The notes under the pieces were generated by a model, which saw only the letters and a list, made by a program, of their open reading frames with translations, was not told the DNA's origin and did no database searches. Position numbers and translations under genes: made by a program. Of a stretch of DNA of 64,000 bases, positions 1 through 64,000 are shown one piece after another. The DNA lies in contig LUCM01004159.1 of the NCBI GenBank assembly GCA_008360955.1, positions 1 through 64,000 on the forward strand, in the 5' to 3' direction. How positions within the stretch are numbered: position 1 is the first letter of the stretch; the number at the start of each line of letters is the position of its first letter. Source of the stretch: Fasciolopsis buskii. Its lineage: Eukaryota > Platyhelminthes > Trematoda > Plagiorchiida > Fasciolidae.

Positions 1-146
1 GTATGTATGTATGTATGTATGTATGTATGTATGCATGTATGTATGTATGTATGTATGTATGTATGTGTGTATGCGTGTATGTATGTACGTATGTGTGTGT
101 CCGTGTATGCATGTATGCGTGTATGTATGTATGTGCGTATGTGTGG
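1..146. repeat. (GTAT)n microsatellite
   Basis: The window opens inside a tetranucleotide GTAT array that becomes interrupted (GTGT, GCGT, ACGT variants) before ending near 146. The reading frames through it give Tyr-Val-Cys-Met repeats, which are a by-product of the repeat and not a protein. Confidence 0.95.
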
Positions 147-24269: not shown

Positions 24270-26416
24270 GCCGAGAATGACATCATAAACCTTGTTAACT
24301 CCAATGGCAACACTGCCACAGGCTGCGGAGGAGAGATAGTTCTTCTCACTCAGTTTTCTGATGCCATTCCAAAAAACCCATCGTGCGGATAAACCAGTTT
24401 CTGATGGAGGACAGGTAAGTGTCCGCAATGTTTTAACTGTACGCACAAATGAAAGATCCAGTGCACAAAATATTTGCTTGGATTGTAGAAACGGGCTACC
24501 AAACTGCTCCAGCGCTCCAGGCGACGCTCCTGAGAGTGAATCACAGAGCTTTCGGATTCCTTGACCAACTCAAGGTTTGGGGTGCAAACTTAATCGGAAA
24601 AAATGAATGGACGAATAATTGATCCAAGCGGATGGGCATGCATCCAGCCAATCCTCGCTGCCTTGTGGATGGATTTCTGTTAGAACCAAAGGGTTCTGAT
24701 GAGAACTCTAGTCGTTCACCTGCTTAGGTGAAATCAGTCTAGTAGCACCCGTCCATCATCTCCTGAGTGCCAAGAAATTATAAACAATTCTACAGGGGTA
24801 ATCCGGACCGCGATGTCCATCGCAGTCAAAAGAGTGGGTAGTGGTAAGCAGACATTTGCTCACGTTTTCGCCCCAATCTCCCCCGGCGCCCTCTCCCTAC
24901 CCATAGTGCTTTCACTGGTTGCATGCCCGACACCTGGAATGATTCATCTCCAAATAGTGTCATGAATGGTTTTCAGTCTCGCAGTTCAAATTCTCTTAAG
25001 CCTCGTCAGCCATTTGGTCTCGGCTCTTTCAATGGGAGTACTTTCATGCAGACCAGTAAACAGGCGTGCTCAGTGCACGGAAGGGATCCACTAGCGATCT
25101 AAATCTGCCGCACCCGTGAAACGCGAATTCAAGATTCGAGTAGTGTAATTCAACTAACTTGTGCGTATTATCTCAAGATATTTCCCGTGCACCTCAAAAG
25201 ACGAAGCAACTCAAACTTCGGGTGAACAAGATGTAAGAAAAACTTAAATGACAAGGCTGGAAGCATGGTACGAGACAGCAACATATAAATACAATTCCGC
25301 AAAAAGTTGATAGAAGAAAGGGAAAATAACAAACGGCAAGATGACAAGTTCTGCTCGTTTTGTTCCCAGCCCTATACATCTTGTGACTTTAGTTCCTTTT
25401 CCAGTTTTTAGAGAGAGGGGGGAGGTACACAAGTTCTACAGACAGGTTATATAACATTAGCATCACATTTCGGTTGAGAGCCATAGATCCTAGCGTTTCC
25501 AGCCAACGACGGTACTCATTTATTGGGCCCCAGCACGAAAGAAGGAAAGCAACAATCGAGGCAAAAATCGAAGCTAACTTATTCACATTACTAAGCCAGG
25601 TCACAACCTGATCATCCCGTCGCTTCTTCCAGCCTTATCGAGCACATGCAAAAAACACCAAGAGGCAGACGATGGACAGGCATACGCAACACATGTCCAA
25701 ACTATCAACGGAGATGTAAAGCGATTAAATTAGTCAGAAGACGACTGTCCGCTTCTAGAACATGTCGATGCATCTCGTCATTGCGCGCCATATGTTCCCA
25801 CCAGACACGAGCAGTGCTTCGGAGATACCGGTGGTCGAACACAGAAAGTCGCCTGGAATCCTAAAATGGGAAAGGACAGGTCTGTTGAACGTAAAGAACA
25901 CAACGATTAATAGTCGCTAATGCGCTGTAAGACTTCAGAGGTCGGCTGGCATTCTACATGATAGATATGTTAAGCGTTACTTGTGTGACATCTCGGAATA
26001 CGCTCCAACAGACGATGGTATTGACATAAGGAACGGATTTGTCGATGGTACTAGCGTTCACAAGAGGGAAGGCTCTGAAAACGCAATAGTACCAGGTGAT
26101 TCTAACAAGCAAACTAGAAAACCTAGTGCGTCAAAAGTTTGTTTGGAAGGATGTTGCGTCTTACCCGCACAGCGTAGAGATAACGGAGGACTACTCCAGT
26201 TTTGTGGAGACAGCCACTTGTTTTATTTTTTACGAGTTCCCGTGGCATAGCCTCAAGTAATCTACCGTTGACACAATTCTGTCCAAAACTGCACGCCCTA
26301 CTGGTCCACGCACGTCGAATCAAACCATGCATTAGTTTTATTGAGATCCTCGCTAAAGCTGAAAATAGATATCGACCTGAACCGCAGACCCGGTTGGTCA
26401 TAGAATGTATATCTGA
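24270..26416. repeat. left copy of a 2147-bp near-identical duplication
   Basis: This block matches 32692-34838 at a constant offset of 8422 bases, so no indels separate them. The single difference I noticed is C/T near 24290. It includes about 330 bp of unassigned sequence plus the first half of the family B element. The right copy ends at a sequencing adapter, so I think this left copy is the real locus. Confidence 0.9.
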
Positions 26417-28492
26417 CTTGGATGTTCGCATCAGTGGCAACTGAGAACTACCACACAAACTAAGAACTCCGCCTAACAGTAATGTAGATGAGCGGTGGGA
26501 CCGAGTCAAGCAACCGACGCGGTTGACAGAACGTTCTGAACAGTCTTAAATCCGTTGTCCATCAAAATCGCTGAGTATGATGGAGCAAAAACGACAGCCG
26601 TAAAAATGTAAGAGAAGAAGATGCGACAACATCTACATCGTCAAGTGACGATAAGCCTCAAGAGTGACCGTGGAAACTGGTGAGTTGAGATACCAGAATA
26701 AATGAAATCAGTGGTTGCCCTAGGTAACAATCAAATACTGCGACGCCGATGGGTGGCGTATTTCGGTGAGTGAAACCGTTTGCCATAGAGCGAGAGGTTG
26801 TACACGGCGGACGACAGAGACTCGATCGCTGGGCTGAATAATTCAAAGACCAACTTAACTGTCACTGCACTGATGTTGTTAATTAGGCGTAAATAACAAT
26901 GAATCATTGGTATCACTTGACTTCCCCCCCAACGGAACTGGAAATAGAATCGACTACTCAATGTTGGAGCAGAGAAAAGCGACCAGTCCCGACCAACTCC
27001 CCCCAAGTTCTTTCTTACTTGTTCGCTCCGTCATATTTGGAACGAGGAATGCACTCCATTGTCAAGAAGCGAATCAGTGAAGTCCACCACATTCGAGAAA
27101 GAAACACAATGACTATACTAATCATAGCGGGACCAGTTTAGTTCCGGTCGATACCGAGGTATCAGCCACGATGTTGTTGCTTTGCCTAACAATGATTCAC
27201 GAGAGTAAAATCCGCAGAAAGTGAGTACGATTTGGCTCAGGTCCAGATTTTCACCAATCGCCATCTACTTGAAACGTCCGACACACCACGCCGCCCGATG
27301 GTCGTTGTGTTCCTCAGCTTGAGAAGAATCGCTCACTCAGTCGACCTAAATGCGCCATTCAGTTCCATTCACGAGGCTTGTTAACATCCTACGAGATTTG
27401 TACTCGCACACATATGGTTACATAAAGGTATAGGATGAACCATCTATTTATTCGAAAACGTTCTAGTTGAGCTTCGTTGATGATTAGACAATAGACGAGG
27501 TGTCAAAATGCAGACGTTAAAGTTGAAAATGGCAAGAAACTAAGGCCGAGATTACATGCACTGCCTTATAAGCTTGATCTATTGTATGGAGAGTAGTGTG
27601 CACTAGACAGGTTGACAGCTGTGGCCTAATTTTGTGTGGACTTGACACCTTCAAATCGCAAAGTGCTGCCTAAAAACTAAATGACAGTACCAAAATAACG
27701 ATTCTCTTCTCGGCAGATGGGTGACGAACAGTGGTAGCGCGACAATGGAAGCGAGCACAAGCATATCTAAGGCTCAGTGGGTATACGCCGGACTGAAACA
27801 CTTGTGGCCCCGACCAGATGTTTCGCTGACAACGAAAGGTCTTGTGTGCTGTGCTGCAGTGCACGCGATTCTGCTGTATGGCTGCGAGACACGGAGTTTA
27901 CATTCTGAAGATACTCGTCACTTGGAAGTATTCGCTCACGGATATCTGAGCAGCATCGCTGGGATTGGATGATGTGACCGCGTGAGCAATGCGCAAGTAA
28001 TAGATACCGGTTCGGAGAATATTTCACTAAGGCTTATCAGGCTTAGTAAACTTCGTGGATTGGGTCCCGTGTTGCGTACGGCGGACACATTTACCGTACC
28101 GTGCCTGATTTACAACCTCCCACTGTGTGGGAAAAGCCACGTGGAAGTCAACAGATGACGTGGGAATGTGGAATGAGAAAGAGTACAGAGAACTGGGGTA
28201 AAACAGTCGCTTCACATCTTTATGGGTGGTCCAAAGGATCCGCTAACCAGGCAGCTGGGACGAGGAAGGACATCGCAGCGAACCGTGAACAGTGGCGACC
28301 GTCATTTTCTGTCGAATAGAAGTGACTGAAAATATGCGTTGTTAAGGTCAAATCATATTCCGTGTTGGCTGATATAAAATTCCTTTCCTTATTGACCTTA
28401 CATATTCATTCTTCCTATTGCAACATGTAATTCCGGGAAGAAGGCAGTGTTCAGCGGGACTTCCCTGCTGCTTAACGCCGAACGATGATGAC
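24600..28492 (+). mobile_element. near full-length but heavily decayed RTE-type element, family B
   Basis: The 5' leader aligns by eye to 54750-55140 (AGAACCAAAGG block). The endonuclease region follows near 24975-25150 (LKPRQPFGLGSF, TRIQDSSSVIQLT), with a later endonuclease piece at 26085-26215 (VPGDSNKQTRKPSASK from GDLNAHVGKLSASE, then LPAQRRDNG). The linker is near 26640 and RT fragments at 26940-27400. The post-RT segment is at 27720-27970 (KAQWVYAGLKHLWPRPDVSL, LLYGCETRSLHSED). The 3' end (AACGCCGAACGATGATGA) is at about 28474-28490, the same terminus as the copies ending at 50460 and 58354. Many stops make it long dead. Confidence 0.8.
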
Positions 28493-30349
28493 TGTCTTGG
28501 TGGCAATGCGAGCGCGATGTCAAGTAAGATGGAAGCCTACTTGCGCAAAATCCACCTAGAAACTAACGTAGCGAGTCGGAACCGCACCGGTGGACATTGG
28601 CCTACCGATGGGATTCTCTTTCCTCTCAGCTATCGAGGACGACGATCTCGATGAACACAGTGTTCTGTGATCGTTATCCGTATCGACTGACTTAGTTTAG
28701 CTCAACGATTGCAGTAATCGTAAGATGTCATTCCCGCAGTGTTGAGACACCGTTTCCCATGCACTGATCTATGCTCAGGATGCTCAGATTACGGCGGACA
28801 CAACAATCTGCGACAGATTCACCGGGTCTAACCACATGCATCGAAGCTAAAAAAAAATGCGCAAGAAGCCACCAGTCTGTACACGGAAGCAAAATGCACT
28901 TTATTTGTCCGCTTAGATCGTCCCTACTCGTAGTGTACGAATTCTCGTAGACTGATCGAGGTGCAACTCTTCAAATCACACGGAAAATAGTGCCTTTATC
29001 ATGACAGACGAACATAACGGTTGTCCAGCGCTTCCGATTTATTCAATAGTTTGGACGCCCTATCCCATTTATATTAGTTAAGGTTAGTTCAAGAGGCTTT
29101 CGCTCAGACCAGATTGAAAACTGTACGTCCAATTCTAGAACCACAAGTTAGTCGGCTCACCCACTGGTTGTCGCTAAAGGATGGCCAATGAACGCACGCA
29201 CTCGGAAGCGGCATAAATCGAGATCTCTGGAAAAATAATGAAATGATTCGCATCAGTCTGAAACTTCTATACAGTTTATTTAGGCATATTGTCTGGCGCT
29301 GTAAACGTTGTAACTAGAGTTCCATTCATTGGTGTCCACAAATGATTGAGAAAAAAGGGGAGGCGGCGGAACATGAAGAGGGATCTGATGAGACGGACGG
29401 GCAGAGGAACATGACTAGTCGGAATCATCCACAACAACGGAAGCCGAGTCAGGGCAAAGGTATAGTCCGCTGTGATCTGAATGCAAGTATCCCGATTGCT
29501 CGTGTCCTAGTAGTGCAGTTACCGAGCGATGGAATGGGACGAATTATTTGATATTCATCATGTGATCCGAAGATGAACAACATCCGGGTATGGTTGGGAT
29601 AGGCAAAGGAAATTGAACAAACAGATCTACATTTCTGGGAATTAGCGGAAAGTTACAATACAAAACCTGGGATGGAGAAGAGTGACTGAGTCTGACAGCA
29701 AGTGCACTGGTGAAAGGGAAAATCTTATCCAGACGGTTTTTTCGCACTGTTCTAAGAGGACTGTGATCATATTTTGAGAAACCTCAAGTGAGTGGTGGAT
29801 ACGTGGTCAGGAAAACAGGAAATCAGAGACCCATAATCAGGGCTCACTGAGGTCAATGGGGATCAAACAAACAAATACACATATATACAAACTGATGGTC
29901 GGTGACCTTGAACAGCATCAAACGAGACATAAAGGAAAACGGGCCGGTTCTCGCCATCCAACTGAATAAACAGAAGACATGTGCAACAAACATGCGTAGA
30001 AGGTAGCCCAATTCATGATTATCACGTATATGGACAACAAACCGCGTCCAGAGACCGCCAAGAGCAACAAAACTTCCTTCTCGGAGCCCCTTCGAAAGAA
30101 CCGGAGGACACTGAAAATGGTATGTGATTTTCTGACAAGAATTTATACACCGGCGGGTGAACCAGTTGCTACCCACATGTAGCAGATCAATACAAGAGAA
30201 AAGAGAGCGGAAAGATCTTGGACTCATCAAAATCCGAGTTCACCTGAATTACCGGACGAGATCATCCGACGTCCAACGACGATTTGAGTTTGTGTGAAAT
30301 AAACCGATATGGCGGTCGGGTGTCTAAAGGGCCGTTCGTATATTTGTCC
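28493..30349. other. 3' flank of WAPL, no supported gene
   Basis: This lies downstream of the WAPL stop codon on the minus strand and so should contain its 3' UTR. A minus-strand AATAAA (TTTATT at 29275-29280) is a possible polyadenylation signal but is about 1.07 kb from the stop. A 125-codon minus-strand frame at 29853-30230 has no recognised family and probably falls in the 3' UTR. Confidence 0.35.
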
Positions 30350-30624
30350 TCAGTTAGCTCCAGCCTGTCGCGCGGTAGTTTTCGCTGTAACGGCGATAAC
30401 ATCTGACCCCCCGTTAGGCGTCCTTTTGTCCTGCGCCTCCAGCACACGCACAATGCGAAGAATTGATTCTGAGCCTGAGGAACCCACGCCTTTTGTGAGT
30501 GACAGAAAACTCAACAACTTGGCCAGCATGATAGCCAATGGACGGAATTGACCATCTGGCAGCTTAGTTCGAATGCGATCGGCGTAACGAGGACTGGACT
30601 GGAGTATACAGCCCAGGAGAAGGG
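30350..30624 (-). CDS. WAPL: WAPL terminal coding exon
   Basis: The acceptor CTCTCACTGCAG precedes 30624. The first two bases complete the alanine codon begun in the previous exon, giving the conserved YAALLLGCILQ join. The exon continues with KLPDGQFRPLAIMLAKLLSF, LSLTKGVG and ESILRIVRVLE, which match the last helices of animal WAPL. It then adds about 25 residues (QDKRTPNGGSDVIAVTAKTT onward) beyond the usual C-terminus before the stop at 30350-30352. Vertebrate WAPL ends soon after the VIEYLE-type helix, so the basic Thr/Ala tail is specific to this lineage. Confidence 0.93.
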
Positions 30625-32079
30625 CTGCAGTGAGAGCGACAGAAATTACACAAGAGGTAGTTTGTATATAGCTTTGAATCATTACAAAGGTAATAGATCG
30701 GAGTGATATCATTTGTGTGCTATTACGCGACCGAATTCGAATAACGCAGCAAGCATACAAAAAAAATGAAAGAACCGCGAAAGGATGTAACTGTGCCAAT
30801 GGTAATAGCACTTAAGCCGTCATCGGATGGATCCGGTGTGCTTATCAAAGGAACAAACTCAGTTTTGGCAAATAAGAACTGATGATAATGTTCCATCCGG
30901 ACATTCACCTTGTCCAACCATGCTTGGGAACTCGGTATTTAGATACAGATGGACGATCTCGAAAAGAAACTGAAAAGCAGGAAACTAGGGTGAAGTTAAT
31001 TTCAGTCGAACCGATGTCAACGTCATGATGTGAATGAAAGCGATGCAGTCTGACCAGCCAGTAAGCAGTATGAATTCTACCGGTAAGGTCGTGAAAATCA
31101 GAACCAGTTCAGTTTTGACATGTGGAGATTTCCACCGCCGGATTTGAATTTGCATTGCGAGCTAACCAAAATCGAATAAAATCGGATGGCTAAAACAAGT
31201 TGCCAATGAAAGCGGAGCAAATAAATGAAGTGCTGTGAACGCGAGTGCATCACAGGGTATGACGTCGATTTGCATCATTTTTCCTCCAGAGATCCAATGA
31301 GTGGATCCCGAGTTGCAAAATAATAGCAGACAGGATCAGTGGTTAATCCTGATAAATCAGTTCATTGTCACGAACTGATCGCCTTCTAAAACCCCTTTAA
31401 CGAATAATCTAGCACGACGAAGCCAACCTGTGGATAGCAGCACGTGCTTCCCACGCCGATCACTATAGATTGTCTAGATTAGTTCATTACAGAACCTGAT
31501 CTTGGACCAATGTATCCTGAATCGTTGATCATGAACATCAGCTATGTTGGAAATTTCACGATTGGTCTGTTGGCTGCAATCTCTTTACTGGGTCATCAGA
31601 TTAAATTTGGCGGCCAATAGTCCGACACTTGTCACTTCGGTATAGTTTTTGGAATCATGTGTACAACTTATCGTCGGAAAACCGCAGAGCTGCGAAAAGT
31701 GAAAATCCTTCATTAGGTGACCGGACAAAATAAAAAGGCCACGTATATTGACACCCGAGGAGAAACGACGACGAGAACCATTCTCCACAAATGCACGAAA
31801 TTTAGCTAGCACCTAGAGAAAAAGCACTTTTGTTGAAGATCAAGTGCATGTATCAATGCTCAGCAGAAGGTACTAAATCTTGTAGTACCATGCACACAGA
31901 ACAATAAATAAGTGACTTTTTCACGATAAGAGAATTCACCCATCAACTAGTGGAGTATACCGTGGGCAGAAATGTGCTTGATTCCTTAGTCACAACTACG
32001 GGAAAAACGCCAAACCGGAAATAAAATGCTGAATTATTCGCAAAGACCTGACTTGGTAGCACATTCAAAAACAACCCAC
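30625..32079 (-). other. WAPL intron, no other feature seen
   Basis: This 1455-base intron is bounded by GTGGGT (32079 leftward) and TGCAG (30625). No retroelement or RNA gene is visible in it. Confidence 0.7.
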
Positions 32080-32691: not shown

Positions 32692-34838
32692 GCCGAGAAT
32701 GACATCATAAATCTTGTTAACTCCAATGGCAACACTGCCACAGGCTGCGGAGGAGAGATAGTTCTTCTCACTCAGTTTTCTGATGCCATTCCAAAAAACC
32801 CATCGTGCGGATAAACCAGTTTCTGATGGAGGACAGGTAAGTGTCCGCAATGTTTTAACTGTACGCACAAATGAAAGATCCAGTGCACAAAATATTTGCT
32901 TGGATTGTAGAAACGGGCTACCAAACTGCTCCAGCGCTCCAGGCGACGCTCCTGAGAGTGAATCACAGAGCTTTCGGATTCCTTGACCAACTCAAGGTTT
33001 GGGGTGCAAACTTAATCGGAAAAAATGAATGGACGAATAATTGATCCAAGCGGATGGGCATGCATCCAGCCAATCCTCGCTGCCTTGTGGATGGATTTCT
33101 GTTAGAACCAAAGGGTTCTGATGAGAACTCTAGTCGTTCACCTGCTTAGGTGAAATCAGTCTAGTAGCACCCGTCCATCATCTCCTGAGTGCCAAGAAAT
33201 TATAAACAATTCTACAGGGGTAATCCGGACCGCGATGTCCATCGCAGTCAAAAGAGTGGGTAGTGGTAAGCAGACATTTGCTCACGTTTTCGCCCCAATC
33301 TCCCCCGGCGCCCTCTCCCTACCCATAGTGCTTTCACTGGTTGCATGCCCGACACCTGGAATGATTCATCTCCAAATAGTGTCATGAATGGTTTTCAGTC
33401 TCGCAGTTCAAATTCTCTTAAGCCTCGTCAGCCATTTGGTCTCGGCTCTTTCAATGGGAGTACTTTCATGCAGACCAGTAAACAGGCGTGCTCAGTGCAC
33501 GGAAGGGATCCACTAGCGATCTAAATCTGCCGCACCCGTGAAACGCGAATTCAAGATTCGAGTAGTGTAATTCAACTAACTTGTGCGTATTATCTCAAGA
33601 TATTTCCCGTGCACCTCAAAAGACGAAGCAACTCAAACTTCGGGTGAACAAGATGTAAGAAAAACTTAAATGACAAGGCTGGAAGCATGGTACGAGACAG
33701 CAACATATAAATACAATTCCGCAAAAAGTTGATAGAAGAAAGGGAAAATAACAAACGGCAAGATGACAAGTTCTGCTCGTTTTGTTCCCAGCCCTATACA
33801 TCTTGTGACTTTAGTTCCTTTTCCAGTTTTTAGAGAGAGGGGGGAGGTACACAAGTTCTACAGACAGGTTATATAACATTAGCATCACATTTCGGTTGAG
33901 AGCCATAGATCCTAGCGTTTCCAGCCAACGACGGTACTCATTTATTGGGCCCCAGCACGAAAGAAGGAAAGCAACAATCGAGGCAAAAATCGAAGCTAAC
34001 TTATTCACATTACTAAGCCAGGTCACAACCTGATCATCCCGTCGCTTCTTCCAGCCTTATCGAGCACATGCAAAAAACACCAAGAGGCAGACGATGGACA
34101 GGCATACGCAACACATGTCCAAACTATCAACGGAGATGTAAAGCGATTAAATTAGTCAGAAGACGACTGTCCGCTTCTAGAACATGTCGATGCATCTCGT
34201 CATTGCGCGCCATATGTTCCCACCAGACACGAGCAGTGCTTCGGAGATACCGGTGGTCGAACACAGAAAGTCGCCTGGAATCCTAAAATGGGAAAGGACA
34301 GGTCTGTTGAACGTAAAGAACACAACGATTAATAGTCGCTAATGCGCTGTAAGACTTCAGAGGTCGGCTGGCATTCTACATGATAGATATGTTAAGCGTT
34401 ACTTGTGTGACATCTCGGAATACGCTCCAACAGACGATGGTATTGACATAAGGAACGGATTTGTCGATGGTACTAGCGTTCACAAGAGGGAAGGCTCTGA
34501 AAACGCAATAGTACCAGGTGATTCTAACAAGCAAACTAGAAAACCTAGTGCGTCAAAAGTTTGTTTGGAAGGATGTTGCGTCTTACCCGCACAGCGTAGA
34601 GATAACGGAGGACTACTCCAGTTTTGTGGAGACAGCCACTTGTTTTATTTTTTACGAGTTCCCGTGGCATAGCCTCAAGTAATCTACCGTTGACACAATT
34701 CTGTCCAAAACTGCACGCCCTACTGGTCCACGCACGTCGAATCAAACCATGCATTAGTTTTATTGAGATCCTCGCTAAAGCTGAAAATAGATATCGACCT
34801 GAACCGCAGACCCGGTTGGTCATAGAATGTATATCTGA
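32692..34838. repeat. right copy of the 2147-bp duplication (probable assembly artefact)
   Basis: It is the same as 24270-26416 with constant offset 8422. It stops exactly at an ambiguous base (34839) and a Nextera junction adapter (34840-34877). This placement points to misjoined reads rather than a genomic duplication. Confidence 0.9.
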
Positions 34839-34839
34839 N

Positions 34840-34877
34840 CTGTCTCTTATACACATCTAGATGTGTATAAGAGACAG
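34840..34877. other. Nextera mate-pair junction adapter (synthetic contaminant)
   Basis: The 38 bases are CTGTCTCTTATACACATCT followed directly by AGATGTGTATAAGAGACAG. These are the two inverted Tn5 mosaic-end oligos joined as in circularised Nextera mate-pair libraries. It is a laboratory sequence left in the assembly, preceded by a single N at 34839. Confidence 0.98.
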
Positions 34878-35017
34878 GTTCCCACCAGACACGAGCAGTG
34901 CTTCGGAGATACCGGTGGTCGAACACAGAAAGTCGCCTGGAATCCTAAAATGGGAAAGGACAGGTCTGTTGAACGTAAAGAACACAACGATTATTAGTCG
35001 CTAATGTGCTGTAAGAT
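34878..35017. repeat. third copy of 25794-25933 after the adapter
   Basis: The sequence restarts at GTTCCCACCAGACACG, repeating 25794-25933 (and 34216-34355) with few differences such as ATTATTAGT for ATTAATAGT. It is the other side of the mate-pair read through the adapter. Confidence 0.85.
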
Positions 35018-35144
35018 CCAGTGCCTCCTGGATTTAAGACCACAAGCGAAATCTGCGGACAAATTCATCGCCGCGAAATATAACCGCACTGCTCGTCGTA
35101 ACTGCTGCTCGTCGAAGTTATTAATTCCTTGGATTGATTCTGGT

Positions 35145-36720
35145 CATAGCCGTTGCGAAAAACCGACTCACATAGACGGTGGACGGCCAGTCGCGGTTAT
35201 GGCCTACACCGATGGCCGTTAAGAGCTGGCGCAAAAATCGCACTAAAACTAACGCATAGTTCGACTCGACGTACGTGATCCAGCACGATCTACAGTTCTG
35301 AACAGAACCGCGCCAACGGTAGCTTACTTCAATATGGTCGATCTAACTCACATTACCGATCGAGTTAGAGCTTCATGTCACCATGCGACGCGAACTGTGT
35401 CGGAAGTTCGTACTAGACAAGAACAGTTATTGTCCGCAAAGAATTGGAGAAGTCTTTCCCCATTATCTGTTCGCTGAGCAGGCAAGTCACAGCGCCCACC
35501 TAAACGGGCTTCCGATGCACTAAGTTTTCCAACGTGTGCATTCAAATCACCTACTACCAATACAATGTCAGAGCCTTTGCTCTTCCGAACAAGAATGATG
35601 AGGTCATCATAAAACTCATCGTTTTGCATGCCAGTGCTGCAGTCTTTTGGGGATGTATGACGAGACGACAAATAAACTGCGCTTAACACTACTATCCTTC
35701 CGGACACCCACTGATCCCTGCAGTCTCACGGCACATAAGCGACTGTTGACTGGGATCCAGTCTAAAAAGGCCGCCTCAGCCTTCTCACTTAAGACTATTC
35801 CTACACCGCGTTGACCCACAGCTTGAATCGCTTCGTCTCTCGAAGCGTGCAGGAAATATCTTGACGAGAAATTAGGCGCAGTTAGTTGAATTACTCTACT
35901 CGAATCCTGAATTCGTGTTTCACTCACACAGCAGACATCAATCAAAAGTGAGCCCACTGTCAGAGCCAAACATGCCTGTTGGCCAGCCTACGTGAAAGTG
36001 CGCACACTGAAGGAACCGAGATTCAGAAGCTGACGGGAATTGAGAAAATGTGAGCTGACAGACTGGAAGCCACCTCGCAGATCATTTGACACTGAACCGT
36101 AGGGAGAATCGAGCGTGTTTTCAGTGGGGCACCATGGGTAGGCAGAAGGGCAAAGAAATTCGGTTGGAGACAGAGGAGACACGCTGAATGAAAGGGAGAC
36201 GGAATATGTTTCTCGTTCCAAATATCACGAAGCAAGGAGGTAAGGGATTTCATCAGAGCTTCTCCACCCATTTTGAAAAGAACTGAGTGAAGTCGATCAG
36301 GACCGGTTGCTTTCCCCCTATTCAGAAGTCGAATATTCGACTCCACTTGCAATTTCGTTGGGGCATCAAGTGACACCTACAAAGGATTTGCAGCTACAGA
36401 CGTCGGCCTAAATACGTTAGTGTGTGGCCAGCTAAACTGATCCTTGAAGTGTTCGGCTCAACGGTCCAACCTTTGTTGTCTACCATGGATGAGTTCTCCA
36501 TTCCTATCGCACACGACTTCACTAACCGGAATTCGCCGCCCACCGCTGGCGCGTATAAGCTTAAACAGTCTTTGACTGTTACCTGAAGCGGCCGCTACTT
36601 CCATCTCTTGAGCTACCCTAATTCGCCAGTTTTCACGGTCATTCTTATAGCTTATGACCAATTGACACTGCAACTGTCGACGTATCTTATGCACCTCCAG
36701 GTTGACTATGTACTACTGTT
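35145..36720 (-). mobile_element. rearranged family B element, minus strand
   Basis: Read on the minus strand, the order is linker (36694-36458, IRRQLQCQLVISYKNDREN, EMEVAAASGNSQRLFKLIRA), RT start (36376-36230, ESNIRLLNRGKATGPDRL, LLRDIWNEKHIPS), then a jump near 36195 to the 5' leader. The endonuclease follows (35969-35378, GDLNAHVGKLSASEARLGGR) and then linker-proximal sequence. The normal order is leader, endonuclease, linker, RT. This is therefore two partial units joined head to tail, or a deletion between tandem copies. The endonuclease part is the exact reverse complement of 55258-55849, with the same frameshift. Confidence 0.85.
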
Positions 36721-38072: not shown

Positions 38073-39013
38073 CTGTTCAGAAATAAAATGAATGAGTGGC
38101 AGTACAAAAGACCAGAAAGCAAAATGCCAAGTGAAGCTATGTCTCCGAATTAATGAAGGACATTTGAGTACACAATATCAAACGAAAGGATAAAAACAGA
38201 AATGCAGGGAATTCTTATTCATATATCTGACTAATCTTTGTACACACCTTGTTCCACTGGAACCATGACGAAAGAAAATCAAAGAGCGCGAGATAATTAT
38301 AAAATAATAAGTGTGTGGGTTTCACAGTATACAACATCTCTTTGAGACCCTTTCACATCATTGATTGTCCGTCGTCATGTATGGCTCCTTTGTGAACTGT
38401 TGCACCACTCGATCGCCCAGTTCAGAACAGGTAAACTTATTCGAGGGTGCATCTCTAGTCCTTGTGAAACCGAACACCATCTACAAGCCAATAGTCACTT
38501 TAGAGGAGCCGGTGGCAAGTCGAAAAGTTAAAGCACCTCTTCTGGAAAACCTCGAGAAATGACCTCATTTAGTAGATGGATCACGCTCGCTGCGTCAGAA
38601 TGGTACTAACTTGTGATATTTCGTATTAAGCCGGAAATTCATATTCAAGGGAATTTGGTCTCAACCAGATTGAAGGCGAGTAGTCTGCAATCAACCTGAA
38701 CAAAAGATAGAATAGATAAACTTAATTCCAGTTCAAACAACGATAAATTATGCACTGCGAGAGTACCACGAAACCAGAATACACGATTGTAAATCAAACA
38801 CCCAACCACTGGGCTATCCGAGTTGATTCCCGACAGCCCAGATAAAGTAGTTGTGTTACACTTGACTTCCAATGGTGAGTTGATAATGAATGGCGAATCA
38901 TCACAAGTAGAACCTACTCATTTTATCTCATTTTCAAATCCGCAAATGTAATTAATAACCGAGAATGAACATCTAAAGGTACTGAAAGCATGTCTACGTA
39001 AACGGGAAATTAC
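38073..39013 (-). other. WAPL intron, no other feature seen
   Basis: This 941-base intron has donor GTAATT at 39013. A tRNA A-box-like stretch on the minus strand near 38810 (TAGCCCAGTGGTTGGG) has no matching B box, so I do not call an element. Confidence 0.65.
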
Positions 39014-39393
39014 CTGCACTAATTCATCTAGCGCTGAAGTGAGTCGTGTTCGGCTTTTGACGGAAATTTCATTTTCTTCGTCATTCTCATCATCGTCGTC
39101 AGGATCGTTATCGTCGTCGTTCTCATCCTGATCACCAGCAGCAACAACCGAATTAGATCCGGATGTCCCGGTTTCCGAACGACTGCCATCTGCGTGTTTC
39201 TTTGGAATGTCAAGATGAACTAGTCGCGTGCGATTCTCCGGACAATGCTCGCACAAGTTGACCAACAAACATAAAGCTAACACGAGTAGATCGAACCGCT
39301 TGTTATCTGGCAGTCTCTGGGGTAGACCCAACAAACATTGGAGAATGGTTTCCAGCAATCCCGGGCAACCGCCTAGGCGATCGCTTGCAAATT
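39014..39393 (-). CDS. WAPL: WAPL exon with conserved hydrophobic helices and an acidic insert
   Basis: The acceptor TATCTTTCAG ends at 39394. The exon completes a Glu codon (SHN|E) and reads FASDRLGGCPGLLETILQC, PQRLPDNKRFDLLVLALC and LLVNLCEHCPENRTRLVHLD. This matches the WAPL segment whose vertebrate form contains LPQEQRFDI and GLLINLVEYS. It then diverges into a Ser/Gly then Asp/Glu-rich insert (DENDDDNDPDDDDENDEENE) before ALDELVQ and donor GTAATT. The exon is 380 bases and ends in phase 0. Confidence 0.93.
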
Positions 39394-39917
39394 CTGAAAG
39401 ATATTAATTAGATTTGAGTTAGTTCTATCACGCGACCCTAGGATAAAGGACAATGTGAAGATCACGGACTGGTGTTGCGAGCAAAAAGAATGAAAGACAT
39501 CCAAAGGAAATTAAATGAACGGAATGCTTTGGACCAAAAAATGGGGTTGTGAGACCATGCCATTTAATTTAGTGGAAAGGCTAATGGTAAATATCCCGTC
39601 CAAGAAACCCCCGATCGTGAATAAGTCGACTGAATTAACATCCAGTCCTTATCGCGCCCAAGTGGGTCTCTTTGGAAACGTGGAATATATGCCACGCATG
39701 AAGGACCAAGAATGCACATCCAACCACAGGGAAAGACGCCCCTTGATCTGCCTCCAACAACTGACTGATCAGAAGATCCGAGCAACGATGTAAACGTTTA
39801 ACGGGGTTGAAGTGAGAAACATTATCTTGAAAAAGTGAAGTGTGATATGCATGATGCGTAAAGCGAAGAAATGAAAAAAATGAGATAATGCAATACATTT
39901 TGGGGCTAGTAACTCAC
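39394..39917 (-). other. WAPL intron, no other feature seen
   Basis: This 524-base intron has donor GTGAGT at 39917 and acceptor TTTCAG at 39394. Confidence 0.75.
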
Positions 39918-43831: not shown

Positions 43832-43944
43832 AGGTGGACCTACGCCGGTGGAGAAAGATAAGATGACGCTGCAGCGAACATAAGCAACACATTTTAACTG
43901 TTGGAAATGTACTTTTTCTATCATATTTTTTGCTCGATCAACAT

Positions 43945-45276
43945 CTACACACATATCCCATGTCTCGCAATCATATAACTGAACTGAAACGCACTGCAGC
44001 ACAGTTTACACGACCTTTCAACTTTCAGTGAAAATATCACGTCCCACGCCACAAGTGCTTCAGTCCAAGCGTAAAGTCTGCTCCAGCTTTCGATATAACG
44101 CGCGTTTACCTCCACTCCCGGGGAAAACCATCGCTCGACAAGCAGCTAACCAAGGTAGGCTGAACAGCCTACAATCGTTATTTCTCTCTCCATCCAGTAT
44201 CAAGTTCGGCGCTGCTGTCGTCCAGTCCTGTAACAGCACTTTGCACTTTGAAGGTGCAGCCATCATTTGTGTTAATCTAAGTCACCACAGCTTTCTTCTC
44301 CATTTGCCAGTTCATCGCCTACATCTTAGAGACTTCCTGAAGCATCTTCCATCACCTCATCCATGACCAGAAGTTGAAACCAGTAAGGGAGAGATAAGAC
44401 ACCTTGTCGAACGCCACTAGTCGTCTCGAATTGAACTTGATAGTTCATCTGTATATACCCTAACGCAGACCATAGGTAATATTCGAGTACAATGCGCACC
44501 AACAGGTTTACGAATCGTCGTTGCATACCCTCTGGTACAGAGCACTGAATAGTGCCGGTCGATCCACGGAGTCGAAAGTTCACCTTATCAATGTCGGGAA
44601 GACTACGGATCGTAGGGCGGCGGTCGTGTGGTGGCCGTTTCGGGTATCTGTTCGGAGAGTGAATTCTTGTCGAATCAACCTCGACCTGGACAAAATCCGG
44701 CCGTGCAGTTCGCGGATTTACTCTCGCGAATCTGGTGTCGAAACGGCCAGTAATAGCGAAGCAAACACCTTAGTAAAACTATCGGAAGTTCTAACAAATC
44801 TCACAATGATGCTGCAGTCACTCCGGTGCCTCCTGCTTCATTAGTTTTCCATCAGGAAGCAAGCCTATTGGAGAAGCTGAGTCCCCATGATTTTCGCATA
44901 CGTTGACTTTTGTTGTCGGTCAAGATTGCTCGAACAATAAACAGTGTTACTTCCAGAAAAAGCGGAAGTGAAAACTGAGAGTCGAAGCTGATGTCCATCC
45001 ACATTAATATCATTTATGCCACCGGAACAAATCTGCCACTTGTGCACAGCACATGAAGAAAAAACACTGGTAGAGGAGCACCGGTGCGTAAGCGAGAATA
45101 GAAAATCCCGAGAGTGGTCTAATGAACACCATGGCCCAGATTAGCGCCCTGTTCAGATTGCGTCTCGAATATGGTCAGTCCGAATGTTCGGACCTTCAAA
45201 AAACCATCAATTAAATTGCCAGTACAGAAGCCCAGTTGCTGGATCAGTGCAAACTTAACTTTAGTAGTTTTATTAC
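43945..45276 (-). repeat. noisy duplicate of the sequence right of the gap
   Basis: This stretch repeats 45315-46590, including non-element flanking sequence, up to the last bases before the Ns (GATCAGTGCAAACTTAA then TTTTATTAC). It carries frequent one-base insertions. I take it as an uncorrected long-read copy of the same locus, so it should not be counted as a separate element. Confidence 0.85.
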
Positions 45277-45301
45277 NNNNNNNNNNNNNNNNNNNNNNNN
45301 N
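45277..45301. other. assembly gap (25 N)
   Basis: There are twenty-five N bases between two versions of the same intron sequence. Confidence 1.
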
Positions 45302-46170
45302 TCAATCATATGCTGATAACATCTACACACATACTCCATGTCTCGCAATCATATAACTGAACTGAACGCACTGCAGCACAGTTTACACGACCTTTCAACT
45401 TCAGTGAAATATCACGCCCACGCCACAAGTGCTTCAGTCCAGCGTAAGCTGCTCCAGCCTTCGATATACGCGCGTTTACCTCCACTCCCGGGAAACCATC
45501 GCTCGACAAGCAGCTACCAAGGTAGGTGAAACAGCCTACAATCGTTATTTCCTCTCCATCCAGTATCAAGTTCGGCGCTGCTGTCGTCCAGTCCTGTAAC
45601 AGCACTTTGCACTTTGAAGGTGCAGCATCATTTGTGTAATCTAAGTCACACAGCTTCTCTCCATTTGCCAGTTCATCGCCTACATCTTAGAGACTTCCTG
45701 AAGCATCTTCCATCACCTCATCCATGACGAAGTTGAACAGTAAGGGAGAGATAAGACACCCTTGTCGAACGCCACTAGTCGTCTCGAATGAACTTGATAG
45801 TTCACTGTATACCCTAACGCGACCATAGGTATACGAGTACAATGCGCACAACAGGTTTACGAACTTCGTTGGCATATCCTTCTGGTGGAGAGCACTGAAT
45901 AGTGCTGGTCGATTCGCGGAGTCGAAAGCACCTTTCAAATCGGGAAAGACTACAATCGTAGGGCGGCGGTGCGTGTGGCGCGTTTCGGGTATCTGTCGGA
46001 GAGTGAATATCTTGTCGAATCAACCTCGACCTGGACAAAATCCGGCCTGCAGTTCGCGGATATTACTCTCGCGAATCGGTGTCAAACGGCGCAGTATTAT
46101 CGAAGCTAACACCTTAGTAACTATCGGAATCTAACCAATCTCACAATGATTGCTGCAGTCACTCCGTGTG
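45302..46170 (-). mobile_element. family B element, minus strand, 5'- and 3'-truncated
   Basis: On the minus strand the RT starts at about 46160 (NDCSNHCEIG then stop). It continues with the palm (45938-45687, KGAFDSANRPALFSALHQKD, FETTSGVRQGCLISPLLFN) and the post-RT region (45605-45306, LDGEEITIVGCFTYLGSCLS, RISKAGAAYAGLKHLWRGRD, VQLYDCETWSMCVD). It keeps Tyr in VQLYDCETW, where the plus-strand copies have a stop. It shares the stop after GSL and the RT-core deletion. The left end meets the gap. Confidence 0.85.
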
Positions 46171-46679
46171 CCCTCCTGCTTCATAGTTTTCCATTCAGGA
46201 AGCAAAGCTTATTGGAGAAGCTGGTCCCATGATTTTCGCATCGTTGACTTTTGTTGTCGGTCAAATGCTCGAACAATAAACATGGTTTCTTCCAGAAAAG
46301 CGGAAAGCTGAAACTGAAGTCGAAGCTATGTCCATCTCACATTAAATCATTTATGCCACCGGAACATCTCCACTTGTGCACAGCACATGAGAAAAAACAC
46401 TGTAGAGGAGCAACCGGTGCGTAAGCAGAATAGAAAATCCGAGAGTGGTATAATGAACACCATGGCCAGATAGCGCCTGTTCATGCCGTCTCGAATATGG
46501 TCAGTCGAATGTTCGACTCAAAAACCATCAATTAATATTTCCAGTACAGAACCCAGTTGCTGGATCAGTGCAAACTTAAACTTTTAGATTTTATTACCGC
46601 TTTTTATCAGGAAAATTAAGTTGATTTTATATTTTAATATGGAACGTAGAAAAATACTAAAACGAGTCGGGTGACTTAC
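46171..46679 (-). other. intron sequence beside the family B copy
   Basis: No element motif is recognised. Most of it is repeated in noisy form left of the gap, so it is a useful unique anchor for reassembling the intron. Confidence 0.5.
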
Positions 46680-54729: not shown

Positions 54730-57700
54730 TACACGGGAGGAGGGGGGAGTGGAAGACTAAATGATCCGAGTAGATGGGCGCCCACTACGCTGTACCCCGC
54801 TGTCTTGCGGTCAGGTTCTTGTCAGAACCAAAGGCTTTGGTTGAGAACCCTAATCGTTCTTCTGCTTAACGGCTAGACTCAGCAGTATTCGTCCACCAAT
54901 CTCCATGAGTTATACGCTTACAAATAATTCCATACTGCATCGGTCGTCGCGCAGGATAATCAGGACCGCGCTGCCCATTACATCGAGCGCATTTGGGGTG
55001 GGTAGTGATAAGTATGGTACTGCTCAGACTTCTCGCCTATTCAACCCGTACCTTGTCTCCAACCAAACCTCTTACCGCTTCTACCTACCCATAATGTTCC
55101 CACTGATAACACGCCGGATACTCACAACGGTTCGGTGTCAAATAGTGCAGTAGGTGGTTTTCAGTCTGTTAGCTCACATTTTCTCAAGCCTCGTCAGCCT
55201 CTGAATCTCGGTTCCTCCAGTGTGCGCACTTTCACGTAGGCTGGCCAACAGGCATGTTTGGCTCTGACAGTGGGCTCACTTTTGATTGATGTCTGCTGTG
55301 TGAGTGAAACACGAATTCAGGATTCGAGTAGAGTAATTCAACTAACTGCGCCTAATTTCTCGTCAAGATATTTCCTGCACGCTTCGAGAGACGAAGCGAT
55401 TCAAGCTGTGGGTCAACGCGGTGTAGGAATAGTCTTAAGTGAGAAGGCTGAGGCGGCCTTTTTAGACTGGATCCCAGTCAACAGTCGCTTATGTGCCGTG
55501 AGACTGCAGGGATCAGTGGGTGTCCGGAAGGATAGTAGTGTTAAGCGCAGTTTATTTGTCGTCTCGTCATACATCCCCAAAAGACTGCAGCACTGGCATG
55601 CAAAACGATGAGTTTTATGATGACCTCATCATTCTTGTTCGGAAGAGCAAAGGCTCTGACATTGTATTGGTAGTAGGTGATTTGAATGCACACGTTGGAA
55701 AACTTAGTGCATCGGAAGCCCGTTTAGGTGGGCGCTGTGACTTGCCTGCTCAGCGAACAGATAATGGGGAAAGACTTCTCCAATTCTTTGCGGACAATAA
55801 CTGTTCTTGTCTAGTACGAACTTCCGACACAGTTCGCGTCGCATGGTGACATGAAGCTCTAACTCGATCGGTAATGTGAGTTAGATCGACCATATTGAAG
55901 TAAGCTACCGTTGGCGCGGTTCTGTTCAGAACTGTAGATCGTACTGGATCACGTACGTCGAGTCGAACCACGCGTTAGTTTTAGTGCGATTTTTGCGCCA
56001 GCTCTTAACGGCCATCGACGCAAGCCACAAACCCGGCTGGTCGTCGAACGTCTGTCTGATTGGGCTGTTCGCAACCGTTATGAACAGAGACTCCCCGGCG
56101 AACTAGTAACTTCGACGAGCAGCAATGGAGACGATCAGTGGGGTCAAATGAAGCAGCTGATACATTTGGCAGCAGGTTTCGCTTGTGGTGCTAGATCTAG
56201 CATTCATCAAAGACACTGGATCTCGCATGGGTTTCTGGGCCTCAAGGAGCGAAAACACCATCTTCCTAACTAGAAGAAGATGAATGAGATACGTCGACAG
56301 TTGCAGTGCCAATTGGTCATAAGCTATAGGAATGACCGTGAAAACTGGCGAATTAGGGTAGCCCAAGAGATGGAAGTAGCGGCCGCTTCAGGTAACAGTC
56401 AAAGACTGTTTAAGCTTATACGCGCCAGCGGTGGGCGGCGAATTCCGGTTAGTGAAGTCGTGTGCGATAGGAATGGAGAACTCATCCATGGTAGACAACA
56501 AAGGTTGGACCGTTGAGCCGAACACTTCAAGGATCAGTTTAGCTGGCCACACACTAACGTATTTAGGCCGACGTCTGTAGCTGCAAATCCTTTGTAGGTG
56601 TCACTTGATGCCCCAACGAAATTGCAAGTGGAGTCGAATATTCGACTTCTGAAGAGGGGAAAAGCTGCCGGTCCCGACGACCTTCCCCCAGTTCTTTTCA
56701 AATTGGGTGGAGAGGTGCTGATGAAATCATTTACCTCCTTGCTTCGTGATATTTGGAACGAGGAGTGTATCCCGTTATCGTGGGGTGAGTCACTGACTGC
56801 ACCCATCTTCAAGAAGGGTACACGGAATGACTGCAGCAATCATTGTGAGATTGGTTAGATTCCGATAGTTACTAAGGTGTTAGCTTCGATAATACTGCGC
56901 CGTTTGACACCGATTCGCGAGAGTAATATCCGCGAACTGCAGGCCGGATTTTGTCCAGGTCGAGGTTGATTCGACAAGATATTCACTCTCCGACAGATAC
57001 CCGAAACGCACCACACGCACCGCCGCCCTACGATCGTAGTCTTCCTCGACTTGAAAGGTGCTTTCGACTCCGTGGATCGACCGGCACTATTCAGTGCTCT
57101 GTACCAGAAGGGTATGCCAACGAAGTTCGTAAACCTGTTGTGCGCATTGTACTCGTATACCTATGGTCGCGTTAGGGTATACAGTGAACTATCAAGTTCA
57201 TTCGAGACGACTAGTGGCGTTCGACAAGGGTGTCTTATCTCTCCCTTACTGTTCAACTTCGTCATGGATGAGGTGATGGAAGATGCTTCAGGAAGTCTCT
57301 AAGATGTAGGCGATGAACTGGCAAATGGAGAGAAGCTGTGTGACTTAGATTACACAAATGATGCTGCACCTTCAAAGTGCAAAGTGCTGTTACAGGACTG
57401 GACGACAGCAGCGCCGAACTTGATACTGGATGGAGAGGAAATAACGATTGTAGGCTGTTTCACCTACCTTGGTAGCTGCTTGTCGAGCGATGGTTTCCTG
57501 GGAGTGGAGGTAAACGCGCGTATATCGAAGGCTGGAGCAGCTTACGCTGGACTGAAGCACTTGTGGCGTGGGCGTGATATTTCACTGAAGTTGAAAGGTC
57601 GTGTAAACTGTGCTGCAGTGCGTTCAGTTCAGTTATAAGATTGCGAGACATGGAGTATGCGCGTGGGAGAAATTCGTCGGCTGGAGGTTTCCCATTACCG

Positions 57701-62887: not shown

Positions 62888-64000
62888 GCTGAGGCGGCCT
62901 TTTTAGACTGGATCCCAGTCAACAGTCGCTTATGTGCCGTGAGACTGCAGGGATCAGTGGGTGTCCGGAAGGATAGTAGTGTTAAGCGCAGTTTATTTGT
63001 CGTCTCGTCATACATCCCCAAAAGACTGCAGCACTGGCATGCAAAACGATGAGTTTTATGATGACCTCATCATTCTTGTTCGGAAGAGCAAAGGCTCTGA
63101 CATTGTATTGGTAGTAGGTGATTTGAATGCACACGTTGGAAAACTTAGTGCATCGGAAGCCCGTTTAGGTGGGCGCTGTGACTTGCCTGCTCAGCGAACA
63201 GATAATGGGGAAAGACTTCTCCAATTCTTTGCGGACAATAACTGTTCTTGTCTAGTACGAACTTCCGACACAGTTCGCGTCGCATGGTGACATGAAGCTC
63301 TAACTCGATCGGTAATGTGAGTTAGATCGACCATATTGAAGTAAGCTACCGTTGGCGCGGTTCTGTTCAGAACTGTAGATCGTACTGGATCACGTACGTC
63401 GAGTCGAACCACGCGTTAGTTTTAGTGCGATTTTTGCGCCAGCTCTTAACGGCCATCGACGCAAGCCACAAACCCGGCTGGTCGTCGAACGTCTGTCTGA
63501 TTGGGCTGTTCGCAACCGTTATGAACAGAGACTCCCCGGCGAACTAGTAACTTCGACGAGCAGCAATGGAGACGATCAGTGGGGTCAAATGAAGCAGCTG
63601 ATACATTTGGCAGCAGGTTTCGCTTGTGGTGCTAGATCTAGCATTCATCAAAGACACTGGATCTCGCATGGGTTTCTGGGCCTCAAGGAGCGAAAACACC
63701 ATCTTCCTAACTAGAAGAAGATGAATGAGATACGTCGACAGTTGCAGTGCCAATTGGTCATAAGCTATAGGAATGACCGTGAAAACTGGCGAATTAGGGT
63801 AGCCCAAGAGATGGAAGTAGCGGCCGCTTCAGGTAACAGTCAAAGACTGTTTAAGCTTATACGCGCCAGCGGTGGGCGGCGAATTCCGGTTAGTGAAGTC
63901 GTGTGCGATAGGAATGGAGAACTCATCCATGGTAGACAACAAAGGTTGGACCGTTGAGCCGAACACTTCAAGGATCAGTTTAGCTGGCCACACACTAACG
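62888..64000 (+). mobile_element. family B element, 5'-truncated, running off the window
   Basis: It begins abruptly in the endonuclease (AEAAFLDWIPVNSRLCAVRL) and matches 55447-56559 at constant offset 7441, with no difference I noticed. It includes the same endonuclease frameshift near 63040, GDLNAHVGKLSASEARLGGR, and the linker at 63721-63957. The RT part lies past the window end. The 5' cut-off is typical of target-primed reverse transcription, but the perfect identity to a dead copy is not. Confidence 0.9.

Follow-up and report, generated by a model that had tools for sequence, protein, structure and literature searches.

A synthetic mate-pair junction adapter beside a single-N gap in the Fasciolopsis buskii assembly

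We report that the 38 bp following a lone N in a 64,000-nucleotide stretch of the Fasciolopsis buskii assembly (contig LUCM01004159.1; the whole stretch analysed is referred to here as the window) are almost certainly a synthetic adapter, whatever the mechanism that left them there, and that the feature is an artefact of the laboratory and of assembly, not biology. The same adapter recurs throughout the assembly, commonly with the sequence on its left ending as the sequence on its right begins, and we suggest that it caps contig ends whose overlap with a true neighbour then stands in the scaffold twice.

Identity of the 38-mer

Position 34839 holds the N, in our reading the sign of a scaffold gap; directly after it come CTGTCTCTTATACACATCT and the exact reverse complement of CTGTCTCTTATACACATCT, which together occupy 34840–34877 and match the adapter with 0 mismatches; both 19-base halves are present and abut directly, with nothing between them. 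The earlier note had given the 19-mer and its inverted partner as 34839–34877, which resolves into the N and the exact 38-mer. The 38-mer is the longest perfect palindrome of the window (38 nt; the runners-up reach 16 nt). No further match to the 19-mer at up to 3 mismatches occurs elsewhere in the 64 kb (chance expectation 0.01), and seven other adapter patterns were sought across the window and not found. We take the 19-base half to be the Tn5 mosaic end. No 9-bp target duplication is visible across the adapter, and from a circularized fragment we would expect none.

Among the papers covered by a full-text search, the 38-mer is printed in PMC7357533 alone; excerpts of that paper show the identical letters in a biotin-labelled ring adapter that was ligated onto sonicated DNA to circularize fragments of ~4 kb. 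A related procedure, tagmentation with biotinylated junction adapters, circularization and removal of the junction sequence by NxTrim, is described in excerpts of PMC6298255, and Nextera mate-pair kits are mentioned in passages of three flatworm genome papers (PMC6530080, PMC8166898 and PMC6890685), none of which is tied to the present assembly. Judged by its letters, the 38-mer points to a circularized mate-pair-type library as its source. Nextera, the kit named in the earlier note, is a likely origin that we infer rather than identify, because in PMC7357533 an adapter of identical sequence was joined to DNA broken by sonication. While the 38 bases are identical to the Nextera mate-pair junction or ring adapter as it appears in that excerpt, here they sit in a scaffold beside a gap N instead of having been trimmed from reads.

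Outside the Fasciolopsis assembly, prokaryote contigs carry the 38-mer in at least 120 stretches (17 organisms are named among the 80 matches listed) and viral contigs in 7, and it is present in 5 of 72,556 plasmid records; it occurs in 0 of 50,697 phage records and 0 of 20,395 E. coli records. One plasmid record, H3, titled a complete sequence, has six matches, a number that includes both strands of the palindrome. In agreement with these matches, with the printed 38-mer and with its copies in the own genome, the earlier note's reading of a synthetic circularization junction adapter is upheld.

Repeats and WAPL order around the site

The left side of the N is formed by a 2147-bp near-copy (32692–34838, plus strand) that ends at the N and differs by 1 mismatch from 24270–26416 (plus strand), the latter lying inside a continuous LINE. 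Distant relatives (~70 % identical) align straight through 26416/26417, and therefore the copy at 24–26 kb is continuous and the copy at 32.7–34.8 kb stops at the N. On the adapter-capped side the sequence starts with a 139-bp repeat (34878–35016, plus strand), 137 of whose 139 positions are identical in 34216–34354 and 25794–25932, and then forks from this repeat into antisense LINE sequence (35014–35028), AGA being common to both sides of the fork and the passage into the antisense LINE falling at 35014–35017. In a genome search in which 40 of 2016 candidates were scored, query positions 1–139 matched only at 34878, 34216 and 25794, and none of the 39 matches listed besides the query itself crossed query position 139/140. 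The piece 26200–26700 has a sole other near-identical place, 34622–34838, with the next genome matches at 67–73 % (40 scored of 1459 candidates), and a recent LINE insertion as the source of the 2147-bp copy is, on these matches, not favoured.

The window site is one-ended in its overlap. Its right flank is a direct repeat of 34216–34354, 662 nt upstream, over 139 nt only; the remaining 484 nt of the left side are unmatched, and the 2 kb downstream contain no copy of the left flank. We infer that 34355–34838 is a false extension that followed the wrong repeat copy; perhaps all of 32692–34838 is a false or repeat-driven contig extension, and the 2147-nt copy may instead be a real local duplication. 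The right-hand repeat differs at 2 of 139 nt and the left-hand copy at 1 of 2147, which hints, at few informative sites, that the intron has a diverged copy of its own. The local errors at the site are thus the N, the adapter and the 139-base repeat, and perhaps the 2147-base near-copy. The outer limits proposed in the earlier note, 32692 and ~35017, are real edges (the start of the 2147-nt copy and the end of the 139-nt repeat), and its caution that repeat counts and variant calls between them are suspect is borne out by the near-copies and the genome matches.

The bases preceding the copies share no words of ≥8 nt with 28350–28900 or 34839–35300; three 10-nt words preceding the intron copy recur at 39696–39874, with no element end visible there. 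Alignments to other LINE copies that scored above shuffle level all stopped short of 24270, the best starting at 24605. A fold-back hairpin at 35017 was dropped, the LINE positions of its two sides not being apparently equivalent. The LINE ORF search gave no matches, and the Rfam and tRNA scans were empty. Beyond the fork, 35028–36696 holds antisense LINE pieces in swapped order, matching 56200–55054 and then 56775–56278, such that along the LINE a reverse-transcriptase-like part precedes an endonuclease-like part (domain names from ORF reading). Elsewhere in the window, a 25-N gap (45277–45301) lies between direct copies (43940–45276 and 45318–46597) that are 90 % identical and perhaps represent unmerged allelic or repeat contigs, and LINE stretches 55447–56559 and 62888–64000 share 1113 nt without a single difference, the second running to the window end, as either a real recent copy or a false duplication.

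The site lies among blocks homologous to WAPL (4K6J), all on the minus strand: residues 9–58 at 60.2–60.6 kb, residues 172–219 at 46.6–47.0 kb, residues 323–385 at 38918–39403 (E 6.2e-10; Pfam PF07814 at E 5.6e-8, above cut-off) and, across the site, the C-terminal residues 497–566 at 30350–30811 (E 1.2e-11; no Pfam match). Two weak matches agree with this order, at 51.3–51.6 kb to residues 90–127 (E 0.58, the last of 30 hits) and at 31.9–32.2 kb to residues 475–511 (E 1.4); the ORF at 39.8–40.3 kb gave no WAPL match, and one of the nine ORFs scanned matched the Pfam WAPL family. The C-terminal ORF has six matches, one being the window itself, and these include Spirometra (71 %) and Protopolystoma (78 %), both Platyhelminthes. 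The WAPL gene seemingly extends over ~30 kb (30350–60590, minus strand), with LINE copies between its blocks.

Since neither the order nor the strand of the WAPL blocks changes across the site, the scaffold order is supported and the error looks local; the long-range order here seems sound. None of the WAPL blocks found overlaps the suspect stretch 32692–35017. The adapter lies between two WAPL blocks of the same strand and so presumably within a WAPL intron; of the earlier note's placement, the position between blocks stands and the intron is presumed from homology. Its claim that the 38-mer marks a false join is too strong, given that the blocks are colinear and given what is found at the sister sites.

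The 38-mer throughout the assembly

The own assembly (703,196,239 bases in 6974 contigs) contains 115 exact copies of the 38-mer and 0 copies of the control, the 38-mer pattern read backwards. Fifty of the 115 places were analysed, the window's included, each of the remaining 49 together with as much as 2 kb of flank per side. At 40 of the 50 sites a single N stands no more than 2 nt from the adapter, at 35 directly against it, and 10 sites have no N; 40 of the 43 N runs within the 200,139 nt examined sit at the adapter. Of the 40 N-bearing sites, 38 have less than 4 nt of adapter on the contig end beyond the N.

At 29 of the 50 sites the left side ends with the very sequence that opens the right side, over 46–1513 nt (median 599). 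A further five sites, the window's among them, are one-ended, and at 16 no overlap occurs within ~2 kb of the adapter. Two of the overlaps occur without an N, and the shortest (46 nt, at site L145) falls in a GTAT repeat. Pairing left sides with right sides from different sites as a control gave 2450 ordered pairs, with 2 full overlaps and 3 one-ended, all of them among three sites with GTAT-type repeats. A GTAT microsatellite of 35.5 copies also stands at the beginning of the window (1–142). Any match at all between flanks is shared by 18 of the 1225 pairs among the 50 sites, none of them involving the window. The 38-mer is therefore found at many places with unshared flanks, as well as in unrelated assemblies, as is expected of a junction adapter. 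By comparison of their flanks, the 29 sister sites look like neighbouring overlapping contigs left unmerged, and adapter on one side together with overlap is the pattern expected if the adapter caps one contig end and hides its overlap with the neighbour.

A possible mechanism and its alternatives

We suggest that untrimmed reads may carry the mate-pair junction adapter into a contig end, that the scaffolder would set the adapter-capped contig after its true neighbour, and that the overlap of the two contigs would go unrecognized because the adapter caps the contig end, with the result that they would be laid end to end with one N and the overlapping sequence would be present twice; the order of these assembly steps is itself presumed. 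The account builds on the adapter, the N, the repeats, the genome-wide pattern and the WAPL order, all observed directly, and we count against it the 16 of 50 sites with no overlap, the 10 of 50 with no N, the two overlaps lacking an N and the one-ended overlap of the window. Taken whole, from adapter-capped contig through hidden overlap to end-to-end join, we hold it to be quite probable. Both parts of it have relatives in the literature. False duplications beside assembly gaps are described in excerpts of PMC9516828, just as near-identical copies here flank one N, but the causes named there are haplotype divergence and sequencing errors, whereas we propose an adapter cap. Excerpts of PMC5368935 describe negative gap sizes for overlapping contigs and the insertion of gaps between overlapping contigs by SOAPdenovo2; in contrast to such unmerged contigs, the overlap here is seemingly hidden by a 38-base synthetic cap.

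The same repeat geometry of end, adapter and start would arise if a short circularized fragment had been assembled as sequenced, reads round a circle of 0.1–1.5 kb being built into a contig. In 127 loci outside Fasciolopsis (the prokaryote and viral stretches given above) with 154 junctions, several per genome and hence not independent, an N lies directly beside the adapter at 5 junctions. In favour of this alternative, every second copy of a flank within the retrieved stretch that reaches 98 % over at least 90 nt is direct. For the right flank these lie upstream only in 19 cases, downstream only in 6 and on both sides in 1 (121 usable), and for the left flank downstream in 14 and upstream in 2 (129 usable); that all are direct is true only at this threshold, looser matching adding some inverted and short second copies. 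An inverted second copy is also present at two of 41 own-genome sites. A read round a circle would, however, be expected to cap both contigs, and at 38 of the 40 N-bearing sites the adapter is on only one; moreover, Nextera mate-pair inserts are typically 1–10 kb (excerpts of PMC4458127) as against a median overlap of 599 nt. We consider this origin unlikely for the assembly. Very unlikely, in our estimate, is a wrong scaffold join around a synthetic adapter, bringing together unrelated regions of the genome: the right side does turn into antisense LINE after 139 nt, a transition seen at no other place listed (40 scored of 2016 candidates), and the N has repetitive sequence on either side, but residues 323–385 of 4K6J at 39 kb and 497–566 at 31 kb lie on the minus strand in unbroken order across it. 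As for a natural Tn5/IS50-like element or other real genomic palindrome, the 19-mer does resemble what we take to be Tn5-type ends, but the natural outer and inner ends of IS50 have 0 exact matches in the window, where no such ends bound a transposase, and nothing separates the two halves; the flanks are not family-like, as the flank comparison of site pairs indicates, and the counts in E. coli, phage and plasmid records given above speak against it as well, such that a natural origin is scarcely credible.

Finally, returning to the adapter cap as the preferred reading, we think it reasonably likely that in mate-pair assemblies contig ends capped by adapter systematically give rise to false tandem duplications, the 38-mer with a single N tending to mark true neighbours whose overlap stands twice. 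For users of this assembly the 115 remaining adapter copies are a warning: counts of repeats and calls of variants or tandem duplications near such sites are probably in error, given the 46–1513 bases standing on both sides at 29 of 50. The remedy is routine, namely adapter screening and overlap merging. If capped ends do yield false duplications, searching public genomes for the adapter could locate such errors. The feature is ordinary as a cause and useful as a warning.
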